Positions 40,249-45,118 of a DNA stretch of 64,000 bases are shown one piece after another. Position 1 is the stretch's first letter. Each line of letters opens with the position of its first letter. Under the pieces are notes generated by a model. It saw nothing but the letters and a program-made list of their open reading frames with translations. It was not told the DNA's origin and searched no databases. The DNA comes from an uncultured bacterium. Its GTDB lineage: Bacteria; Cyanobacteriota; Vampirovibrionia; Gastranaerophilales; Gastranaerophilaceae. Position numbers and translations under genes: made by a program. Location of the stretch: contig CASEYJ010000004.1 in the NCBI GenBank assembly GCA_949292175.1, forward strand, positions 1-64,000. Direction: 5' to 3'.

Positions 40249-40779
40249 TCATATTAGGTGAAATATTCCAACAACAAGTCCGTAAATTGCAGAAAGTCCC
40301 AAATAAACTAAAGGATCACGCTTTGTTTTAAACGAAAGAATAAGTAACGCAAAAAACAGAATGACAGCCCAGATATTAGTAACATTTTCCCTAAAAATTT
40401 GAACACCAACTGCTGTAAGCAACCCACATCCCGCAGGTTTCAACGCATAAATTGCAGCCTGCACATGCTTATTCTGACGAAATTTTTCAAGCAGTTTAAA
40501 AACAATAATTACAATAATATATGAAGGCAAAATAACTGCCGTTGTAGCGATAAATGCGCCCAATATACCTGAAGTCACAAATCCCGCAAACGTAGCGACA
40601 TTTACCCCCAAAGGTCCGGGAGTTATGGTGGACACAGCAATCATATCGGACAATTGCTTGGCTGAAAACCACCCATAATTTTCGGATATATGATAAAGAA
40701 ACGGAAGAGTCGCATATCCGCCGCCAAAAGAAAATAACCCAGTCTTAAAAAACTCATACATCAGCTGAACAAAAAGCAT
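40249..40779 (-). CDS. chromate transporter (CHR) family, second half-protein, 176 aa
   Basis: One of two adjacent half-size CHR genes. It has FKTGLFSFGGGYATLPFL near the N-terminus, the CHR signature, PGPLGVN and about six hydrophobic segments. Short-chain CHR proteins act as pairs in opposite membrane topology. The start codon overlaps the partner's stop by one base (TAATG). Whether the natural substrate is chromate or another anion such as sulfate is uncertain. Confidence 0.88.
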   Translation of the reverse strand: MLFVQLMYEFFKTGLFSFGGGYATLPFLYHISENYGWFSAKQLSDMIAVSTITPGPLGVNVATFAGFVTSGILGAFIATTAVILPSYIIVIIVFKLLEKFRQNKHVQAAIYALKPAGCGLLTAVGVQIFRENVTNIWAVILFFALLILSFKTKRDPLVYLGLSAIYGLVVGIFHLI

Positions 40780-41330
40780 TAGTTACCCTCCTTTTGTTCT
40801 CTGACAAAATATTTATACAAAACCCCAAATAATATGCTCGAAGTAATGACAAAAACCGGAGAAATTTTCAACACGGATAGAACAAGAGCATACGCAAAAA
40901 TTACCCAAGTAAATCTATCAACTACGCTACGTCCCCACATTTCTTTTACCGCAAGGAATAATAATATTACAACGCCAACACCAACTCCGAAGAAAATAGA
41001 ATGAACGATAGTATTCCTAACAATTTGCTCTAACAGACTGGCAACAAGGACAATAGATATAAAAGCCGGAGAAATACAACCCGCTAATGAAGCTATCGCC
41101 CCCCTAAACCCAAGCAACTTATATCCGGTAAAAATAGATACGTTCGCTGCAATAAGCCCCGGTAAACTTTGAGATAATGCATAATATTCACACAACTCAT
41201 CATTCGATATCCAAGACTTTTTCTCAACCAATTCACTCTGTAATAACGGCAAAATAACATATCCACCACCTAACAAGAGTAAACCTATTTTAAAAAATAT
41301 TTTATAAATACTAAAGAAAGATTTCTCCAT
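40779..41330 (-). CDS. chromate transporter (CHR) family, first half-protein, 183 aa
   Basis: The first partner shows IGLLLLGGGYVILPLLQSE, SQSLPGLIAANVS and about six hydrophobic stretches. Together with the following gene it reconstructs the full-length CHR transporter as two polypeptides. Its TATAAT lies inside the 3' flank of the matrixin gene, 6 bases before the ATG, with no Shine-Dalgarno, so the pair has its own leaderless-type promoter separate from atpDC. Confidence 0.88.
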   Translation of the reverse strand: MEKSFFSIYKIFFKIGLLLLGGGYVILPLLQSELVEKKSWISNDELCEYYALSQSLPGLIAANVSIFTGYKLLGFRGAIASLAGCISPAFISIVLVASLLEQIVRNTIVHSIFFGVGVGVVILLFLAVKEMWGRSVVDRFTWVIFAYALVLSVLKISPVFVITSSILFGVLYKYFVREQKEGN

Positions 41331-41342: not shown

Positions 41343-41870
41343 CTACAAGCTATATATCTGCTTCAAAACATAAATATCATTTTCACTTGGAACCGAAATA
41401 TTTTTTTGATGAGGAACAAACATAATATCATCAACCTCAACCCCATGCCCAAGGCCAAGAGCATGCCCAAACTCATGCATTATTGCACAATAAATACTTA
41501 AATCCGTCGTATCTTTACCAGAAAAAGAGTTTGGCATACCGATTTCAATTGAAATTTTCTTAAACTCACCATTCACTACACTGACATACTTACACATGCC
41601 CTCATACACTCTACCAACCTTAACCCAATGAACAACAATATCAGCAGATGCAGCAGAAGAAATCTTGTTGAACTGCACAAATATCGAATTTTCTCTAAGC
41701 ACCCTATTCCAACTTACAATAGCCTCATCAACTTTGGAATACCAATACTCCGGATTGTTTACGGACAAAAGCGGAGTGATAAAGACATTAACGACAGGTT
41801 TCTGCCATCTAGCGAACCTGCCGTTAATCTTCGAATCATTCAAATAATTAGTTATTCTGGACGATAACAA
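41343..41870 (-). CDS. matrixin-type (M10) zinc metalloprotease, 175 aa
   Basis: The zinc-binding consensus HEFGHALGLGHG near residue 131 is complete, followed by DIMFVP, the Met-turn region in which Met is conserved. The catalytic core (strands and helix from about residue 25) is whole. The frame starts with TTG at 41870, 26 bases after the atpC stop; no ATG is in frame and no signal peptide precedes the domain, unlike most matrixins, which are secreted. The 5' end may have been truncated, or the enzyme acts in the cytoplasm. Downstream of atpC by position. Confidence 0.75.
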   Translation of the reverse strand: MLSSRITNYLNDSKINGRFARWQKPVVNVFITPLLSVNNPEYWYSKVDEAIVSWNRVLRENSIFVQFNKISSAASADIVVHWVKVGRVYEGMCKYVSVVNGEFKKISIEIGMPNSFSGKDTTDLSIYCAIMHEFGHALGLGHGVEVDDIMFVPHQKNISVPSENDIYVLKQIYSL

Positions 41871-42349: not shown

Positions 42350-43774
<1,425 letters not shown>

Positions 43775-43814: not shown

Positions 43815-43879
43815 GTAGAAAAATTTACTAGTTAAAAATAACACACTGGTGAATATTTCGACTTTTGATATACAAAGGA

Positions 43880-43903
43880 TTACATAACCTATGTTATGGG
43901 AAT
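43880..43903 (+). repeat. left terminal inverted repeat
   Basis: Reverse complement of 44430-44453 except one base. It is itself partly palindromic (CATAAC-CTAT-GTTATG), which slightly weakens its weight as a terminal repeat. Confidence 0.6.
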
Positions 43904-44429
43904 ATGATATGTAGCTTTCACTTTTCCTTGTAACAAAAAGGGGAAGTAGTAACATGAATAACTTTCAAAATTCAAAGAAATAACTTATGTTCATTTCTTT
44001 CTCTTTATTTGCGAAGCAAAGAGAAAGAAACGAACCAAAGAAAGAGAAAGCACGCAAACGTTCCCTGCACTTGAACAATAGTTCAAGTGCTTAAATAATA
44101 ATTTGAGCAGTAGCTCAAATTCCTTTCAAAGCCTTGCTATCGTGCTAGCGCACACGCAAGGCAAATTTTTAAAACTAGAAATAGCGCTGCGTTGTCCTTA
44201 GCAGCGCTTGAACCATTTCGTTTGCTTAAGCAAACGGAACGAACATCCATTCGGTCAAATCGGCGCCGTAGGCGACGAAGTCTTATCAGCGTGTTTTTCT
44301 CTTTTGAGGTACTTTTCTCTTTTTTTCTCGCAACAAAAAAGAGAAAAGTAGCAAAAAGAATAACTTTTAAAATTTAAAGATACAACTAGGGTGAAGAGTG
44401 TTGAAGGAACGCAATATTACCGTTTTGCT

Positions 44430-44453
44430 ATTCCGATAACATAGGTTATGTAA
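44430..44453 (-). repeat. right terminal inverted repeat
   Basis: Matches the left repeat at 43880 in inverse orientation at 23 of 24 positions, including the asymmetric CTAT/ATAG loop. Confidence 0.6.
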
Positions 44454-44551
44454 ACACATTTTTATCCCTAAATTAATCACAAGCATTAGACCATTAGAGA
44501 ATAATTTTCCGACAACAAACATATATAATAACCCTTATAGGAGAAAATATC

Positions 44552-45118
44552 ATGAAAACGAACTTTTTTATCTATATCTTACTATTACTGGCATATCTAA
44601 TATTTGTACAAACTGCAAAAGCTGAAAACATACATTTCAATAATGATATCTACAACCTAAAAGTCAGTAACGCACTAGAGTTGGACAAAGGATATGAAAA
44701 TGAATATTTTCCGGCTAATGAAACGAAAAATAATTGGAACAAAATGATTGGGATTTATTATTACCCTGAAATATCTAACCCGCTAAAATTCGCAAGCCAA
44801 AAAGATGAAGAAATTGAGAAAAGAGAAACTGTCGCCCTGCTAAAATATATTGAAAATAAAAAACAAGACAAAGCTCTCTTAAGCTTTTTAGAAAACGGTG
44901 AAGCAAACGGTAAAAAGTACTTTGAATATAACATCTACAAATACGAAAAGCATCCGGATAAAGGTACTATGGTTCTAAGATATGCTAAGAAATACTTCTT
45001 TAAAACAAATGCAGAAATAACTAAAATAGGTCATGAAGTAAAAGGCATAAATGATGACCTGCTTGAACAACTAATAATAACCCCAATACCGCCAATAGTA
45101 GAAAAAATTATGGAATAA
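44552..45118 (+). CDS. secreted protein of unknown function, 188 aa
   Basis: The gene begins after AGGAGAAAA and a signal peptide (MKTNFF, hydrophobic core, AKA-E near residue 25). The mature protein is acidic to neutral, Lys/Glu/Asn-rich with several Tyr, beta strands and helices, no cysteine and no known motif. It is the first gene beyond the hairpin element and stands alone. A strong bidirectional hairpin follows. I do not recognise a family. Confidence 0.75.
   Translation: MKTNFFIYILLLLAYLIFVQTAKAENIHFNNDIYNLKVSNALELDKGYENEYFPANETKNNWNKMIGIYYYPEISNPLKFASQKDEEIEKRETVALLKYIENKKQDKALLSFLENGEANGKKYFEYNIYKYEKHPDKGTMVLRYAKKYFFKTNAEITKIGHEVKGINDDLLEQLIITPIPPIVEKIME

Follow-up and report, generated by a model that had tools for sequence, protein, structure and literature searches.

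A gene-free, hairpin-packed chromosomal element bounded by inverted dif-like sites with matching centres in Candidatus Gastranaerophilales

The gene-free, hairpin-dense stretch of 574 bp beside atpD (positions 43880-44453 of the window, by which we mean the whole analysed DNA of 64,000 nucleotides) is probably a chromosomal dif-type module, in which inverted XerC/XerD-like sites with identical 6-bp centres enclose a cassette of hairpins. Comparison with related genomes reveals inserted and dispersed elements of this kind with matched centres, whose interiors have in relatives apparently been flipped or exchanged; at some loci the element is reduced to bare sites.

The ends of the stretch (43880-43904 and 44429-44453) form inverted repeats with a 96% match over 25 nt, or 23 of 24 bp, and longer inverted arms (43867-43904 and 44429-44466) are 82% complementary over 38 nt. 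An earlier note, made from the letters of this stretch, had described 24-bp terminal inverted repeats; their inversion is confirmed, whereas the functional-looking ends are 28 bp, three bases longer on each side (Table 1). In the centroid RNA fold, about a dozen consecutive hairpins lie within a closing stem formed by both ends, and an 18-bp stem of the two ends closes the whole structure in the RNA and DNA folds alike. For the RNA, the minimum free energy was -202.4 kcal/mol against -123.3 for shuffles (sd 5.9; z -13.4), and for single-stranded DNA it was -120.7 (z -12.9), with 100 dinucleotide shuffles as reference for either form and none of them as stable as the stretch. Open reading frames touching the stretch reach at most 70 aa, the two longest had no Pfam match, and no tRNA or tmRNA was found within it. 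Its G+C of 0.37 compares with 0.25-0.27 in two adjoining intergenic stretches and 0.353 in the whole window. The row of stem-loops, the missing coding region and the G/C enrichment over the surroundings that the earlier note had pointed out are all borne out by these results. Elsewhere in the window, a small protein with a metalloprotease-like HEFGHALGLGH motif (41343-41870) and, adjoining it, two membrane proteins of similar size that look like a split transporter (40249-41330) were noted by eye.

Table 1. Features of the element, its flanks and related loci; plain numbers are window positions, and arm and centre sequences of the left site are given on the + strand.
Feature	Position	Strand	Remark
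Left dif-like site	43877..43904	-	outer XerD-like arm, centre and inner XerC-like arm
Left site, outer XerD-like arm GGATTACATAA	43877-43887		
Left site, centre CCTATG	43888-43893		
Left site, inner XerC-like arm TTATGGGAATA	43894-43904		compared with other copies
Right dif-like site	44429..44456	+	inverted partner, same centre as left site
Right site, inner XerC-like arm TATTCCGATAA	44429-44439		
Right site, centre CATAGG	44440-44445		
Right site, outer XerD-like arm TTATGTAAACA	44446-44456		
Interior, gene-free, of hairpin modules	43905..44428	.	
Direct repeat r	43922..43985	+	79% to 44322-44387; junction of C17 circular permutation
Direct repeat r' (second copy of r)	44322..44387	+	
Hairpin module GTTCATTTCTTTCTCTTTATTTGCGAAGCAAAGAGAAAGAAACGAAC and its repeat	43984..44060	+	in 94 of 192 genomes of the order
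Hairpin GCACTTGAACAATAGTTCAAGTGC, 10 bp	44067..44090	+	
Hairpin AATTTGAGCAGTAGCTCAAATT, 9 bp	44100..44121	+	
Hairpin AGCGCTGCGTTGTCCTTAGCAGCGCT, 8 bp	44183..44208	+	
Hairpin TTCGTTTGCTTAAGCAAACGGA, 9 bp	44217..44238	+	
Hairpin TCGGCGCCGTAGGCGACGA, 7 bp	44260..44278	+	
Long hairpin GGTACTTTTCTCTTTTTTTCTCGCAACAAAAAAGAGAAAAGTAGC, 17 bp	44308..44352	+	
atpD, flanking	42350..43765	-	element upstream of atpD promoter region
188-aa gene, flanking	44552..45118	+	without Pfam match
~183-aa tyrosine-recombinase-like protein	G006:C5:37808, G058:C1:133125, G080:C10:14965		
TATATA-centre site	L210 (G000:C17:26367 region), L166, others		ORF encodes FLHNIYYRYIS

Both ends read as 28-bp dif-like (XerC/XerD) sites of 11 + 6 + 11 bp, placed in inverse orientation with the XerC-like arms inside, and 11-6-11 is the layout of a dif site (PMC5357621). 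The dif site of B. subtilis is ACTTCCTAGAA-TATATA-TTATGTAAACT and that of F. alni CACGCCGATAA-TGCACA-TTATGTCAAGT; the right outer arm shares 10 of 11 bases with the B. subtilis XerD arm TTATGTAAACT, and the inner arm, which resembles XerC arms, shares 8 of 11 with CACGCCGATAA of F. alni. Information content, computed over 81 sites, is 1.9-2.0 bits per position in the half-site cores ATAA and TTAT and 0.3-1.7 in the centre positions, with 13 distinct centre sequences between elements. Within elements, partner centres were identical in 36 of 45 inverted pairs and one base different in another five, while permuted partners reached a mean centre identity of 0.16 and a maximum of 0.31 in 2000 permutations. 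The C17 copy of the same genome has centres (AACATG/CATGTT) that differ from those of the window and again match between its own two ends. Centres that match within elements and vary between them are as expected of an Xer crossover region. Inverted pairs outnumbered other arrangements by 45 to 9 among the loci read (control 0), an orientation count that is biased because some loci had been chosen as inverted pairs, with centre match no criterion in that choice.

The window's own genome (1.63 Mb, 17 contigs) contains further copies: four in all, in the window, on C3, on C17 and, truncated, on C16. They sit as single elements between unrelated chromosomal genes, with interiors that combine a common set of modules into mosaics. 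Further strong hits of the end motif in this genome fall within coding genes and were set aside as probably due to chance. The C17 interior is a circular permutation of the interior in the window: segments 46-307 and 304-511 of the window copy (element coordinates) follow each other in reverse order, and they overlap in a 66-bp direct repeat found on both sides of the unit in the window. The permutation (L020 1308-1784) looks as though the interior had once existed as a circle or in tandem.

Beyond this genome, the interior modules are present in 94 of 192 genomes of the order, Candidatus Gastranaerophilales, and in an exact-pattern scan of 84,980 species every record that contained them bore the title Candidatus Gastranaerophilales or 'uncultured bacterium'. 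The arm pattern TTACATAA-N6-TTATCGG, with the centre unconstrained and at most one mismatch, was sought in 60 genomes of the order and gave 95, 42, 35, 35 and 33 sites in G041, G076, G006, G082 and G080, as against 1, 0, 0, 0 and 3 for the reversed-pattern control. The elements range from 42 to 700 bp, and no dif-like pair can be recognised in many hairpin arrays built of the same modules. In one genome (L082, G006:C5:89000-93000), very similar arrays carry other inverted ends, GTGCCTGAGGCAC, without dif-like sites. The flanks of L193, L197 and L199 in G080 reveal elements nested in larger ones with ends TTACATAA-AAACTA-GTGCC...GGCAC-TAGTTT-TTATGTAA, in which outer arm and centre are the same and the inner arm is different. 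Short palindromes of two XerD-like arms round a single base, TTACATAA-C-TTATGTAA, occur in G006 (L080, L083, L085), with a decayed form in G066 (L239), and are possibly deletion scars. Genus g6, too, has an element of this kind upstream of atpD, at a different distance from the gene (L204, L217, L225-L228), and the region upstream of atpD is a possible insertion hot spot.

The empty sites that the earlier note had proposed to look for exist both for this element and, at orthologous loci, for related ones. Three congeners (G003, G004, G012) have atpD and the gene for the 188-aa protein as a pair with no element between; this gene adjoins atpD in several congeners. Orthologous loci of genus g6 hold a full element, nothing, or a remnant of 42-45 bp that consists of just the two inverted sites back to back. 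At one locus of genus g39, two species have a minimal form of 73 bp and two others have 391 bp and ~229 bp, between flanks that are mostly 84-99% identical. Empty alleles at many scattered loci contain no dif site. In several of them (L204, L195, L206) the sequence TTTACATA or TATGTAT, which is a XerD half-site, is present at one junction even without an element. This is suggestive of half-site targeting at new loci, although the junction regions are rich in A/T and may in some cases be scars that have decayed. At filled/empty junctions, we were unable to establish a fixed target duplication; one locus, L205, is readable with a TTATAA duplication.

Interiors at orthologous loci were compared by BLAST, with the flanks as reference. 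In 7 of 14 comparable ortholog pairs, from two genera, the interior is inverted between unchanged flanks. In L194/L282 (G080/G178, g39), the whole 550-bp interior is inverted at 96.5% identity and the flanks are 98% identical. Inversion also separates L200/L280 (248 bp at 93%), L199/L292 (244 bp at 86%) and L195/L290 (pieces at 90-96%) in g39, as well as L208/L236 (259 bp at 90%), L204/L225 and L204/L228 (both ~85%) in g6. The same orientation was found in six pairs of the g39-set comparison (L195/L278, L200/L281, L203/L288, L198/L285, L196/L284, L197/L286) and in a seventh, L205/L248. Seven inverted pairs of 14 come near to randomisation, as a freely flipping segment would give. All these inversions concern elements of relatives, at loci other than that of the window.

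Interiors are also exchanged. In L196/L284, L197/L286 and L198/L285, most of the interior has been replaced between flanks that are 98-99% identical. The new interior may be similar to one found at a different locus whose centre is identical; at the L200 locus, for example, the G178 copy resembles the interior of the G080 element L199. Repeats with identities of up to 99% over 357 bp are common to related interiors, and homologous recombination or misassembly could lie behind some exchanges and part of the inversions. The genomes are draft metagenome-assembled ones with repeated modules, in which single cases are possibly assembly errors; recurrence in two genera and in different assemblies makes this unlikely as a general explanation. 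Taken together, Xer-driven inversion and cassette exchange are well supported by these sequence comparisons.

Relatives encode two conserved XerC/XerD-type recombinases of ~300 aa, and the window's own genome, a 90% complete assembly, has one XerC/D-type gene only, with XerD as best match. Since the element-rich G082 has only three PF00589 proteins (305, 293 and 357 aa), XerC and XerD are the recombinases common to the genomes surveyed. Besides these two, a tyrosine-recombinase-like protein of ~183 aa recurs in relatives (Table 1). The only single-copy candidate for the host dif, with both dif-like arms and the centre TATATA, is situated within a conserved MnmC2-like ORF, as seen in at least 13 genomes. 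It may be the host dif within a gene or a coincidence at the protein level, and it is only a candidate because protein conservation (FLHNIYY) could suffice to explain it; as a firm host dif it was rejected.

The earlier note had favoured a MITE-like non-autonomous element, possibly mobilised by an IS630-type transposase in view of a TA at each end. The description stands, as the element is multi-copy, gene-free, inserted and bounded by inverted ends; the IS630-type transposase finds no support. The TA belongs to the outer half-site TTATGTAA, it is absent at several ends (the C17 copy ends ATGG/CATAA ... TTATG/AATT), and the flanks of ~40 paired elements, searched for a target duplication as had been proposed, show none that is constant. 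An IS630 reading is therefore not the best one, given the 11-6-11 ends, the centres variable between and matched within elements, and the frequent inversion in place. More broadly, a MITE moved by some DDE transposase, IS630-like or other, with its dif likeness due to coincidence or mimicry, would account for inverted ends, empty sites, multiple gene-free copies and the TTATAA duplication at L205. We consider it unlikely: a transposase should have no need of ends in which, amid fixed flanks, the centre differs from element to element and matches within each, inversion in about half of the comparisons and swapping of interiors are unexpected for a DDE element, and no carrier of a transposase between such ends was seen in the loci read.

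Less likely again, in our view, are dispersed repeats with passive ends that are shuffled by RecA-type homologous recombination, gene conversion or replication slippage. Long near-identical modules are common to interiors at different loci, and recombination at the 66-bp direct repeat would explain the circular permutation of C17; yet inversion of a whole interior between ends of ~22 bp, as in L194/L282, would be inefficient in this way, and the 11-6-11 anatomy, the identical centres and the insertion into empty sites are left unexplained. We regard as more doubtful still a satellite of an Xer-exploiting phage (IMEX), delivered as single-stranded phage DNA and integrating like CTX-phi. The single-strand fold joins two inverted dif-like sites into one duplex, as in the attP of CTX-phi (PMC5357621), and a slightly longer site pattern matched 28 contig stretches of IMG/VR, of very different G+C, with none for the reversed control. 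This result, which also favours the dif-type module, suggests that similar arms serve in other replicons too, probably as Xer-type sites; the viral ones are perhaps att sites of Xer-exploiting phages. The viral matches (L325-L352) nevertheless have diverse centres and in essence stand alone, lacking an inverted partner that matches; no record of a phage or plasmid matched the element, and the elements stand at many loci that are not dif. Finally, it is very improbable that the stretch serves atpD as a cluster of terminators or as a structured RNA, regulatory or non-coding: the fold is very stable and the element lies upstream of atpD, as does one of the same kind in another genus (L204), but the RNA alternative raised by the earlier note is left with foldability only, as Rfam gave no family at gathering score and weak sub-threshold matches only, promoter and terminator signals are weak, congeners have this gene pair without the element, other copies have unrelated genes as neighbours, and modules are permuted, swapped and turned between copies.

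For the dif-type module that we favour, the host XerC/XerD pair would catalyse inversion by crossover in the identical centres, and could also swap interiors between elements that share a centre. Inverted sites alone cannot excise a circle; they account for flipping and swapping and leave arrival at a new locus aside. For arrival, one may speculate that a single strand folds and that its ends, by pairing, form a single dif-like duplex, which XerC/XerD might join to a XerD half-site (TTACATA) that the target contains beforehand; the hairpins of the interior would then be passenger sequence. We tentatively put folded-strand integration at a half-site forward as the likeliest route, ahead of transposase action and template switching, because the fold that joins both ends is the arrangement of the CTX-phi attP. 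Such joining would resemble the integration of CTX-phi single strands or of integron cassettes. In integron cassettes, a folded single-strand site is joined by an enzyme related to XerC/D. That the elements might form a new class of gene-free mobile DNA, moving as a folded strand to XerD half-sites at any place in the chromosome and then flipped and swapped by XerC/XerD, is a doubtful further step; if true, the folded-strand element would be an integrase-less counterpart of integron cassettes.

Several known systems share part of this anatomy. A folded single-strand recombination site, the route proposed here, is common to integron attC, but there is no integron integrase or attI here, there are two inverted sites and not one attC, and no gene is carried. 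In the IMEX/CTX-phi attP, likewise, a pair of inverted dif-like sites on the same strand folds together to give one recombination site (PMC5357621), whereas CTX-phi is a phage integrating at dif and we see no phage genome and scattered targets. Bacterial MITEs and the IS1202 family share inverted ends of ~24 bp and an association with dif-like sequences, MITEs also being gene-free (PMC10132070). Members of the IS1202 family insert at a distance of 5 bp from a dif site and have TGT/ACA ends, a transposase and 5-bp duplications (PMC10132070); unlike them, the elements described here have none of these traits, and their ends are themselves dif-like sites. In Acinetobacter sp. M10, extra chromosomal dif-like sites bound mobile modules as well, but there the modules contain genes, for resistance among others, and are almost the same as modules found on plasmids, whereas ours are without genes (PMC12907356).

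The closest likeness is to the C-type dif (pdif) modules of Acinetobacter, which have inverted 11-6-11 sites with internal XerC half-sites and matched or nearly matched centres, undergo inversion and single-module replacement that obey the centre, and use the host XerC/XerD (PMC13141974). The element has two dif-like sites of 11-bp arms and a 6-bp centre in the inverse orientation of the C type, and rearrangement between identical or near-identical centres can be inferred from the inversions and exchanges between species. In this sense it probably works like a C-type dif module outside the plasmid array context. The pdif modules form alternating C/D arrays, usually on Rep_3/OrfX plasmids; here the elements are chromosomal, single and intergenic without a plasmid match, dense in hairpins, devoid of genes in the examples read, 42-700 bp long, and inserted at loci that lack a full dif site. 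A gene-free 'empty' D module is known in Acinetobacter, to which the dif-module system has been called unique (PMC13141974); among open-access papers we found none on such elements in Gastranaerophilales. Inverted sites with matched centres around gene-free cassettes, with inversion in about half of the comparisons between species, in the chromosomes of an unrelated gut lineage suggest that parasitism of the enzymes of chromosome-dimer resolution is wider than thought. The many natural filled, empty and minimal alleles offer material on how a dif module reaches a new place, and on the means by which a cell copes with a chromosome that has tens of additional Xer sites.
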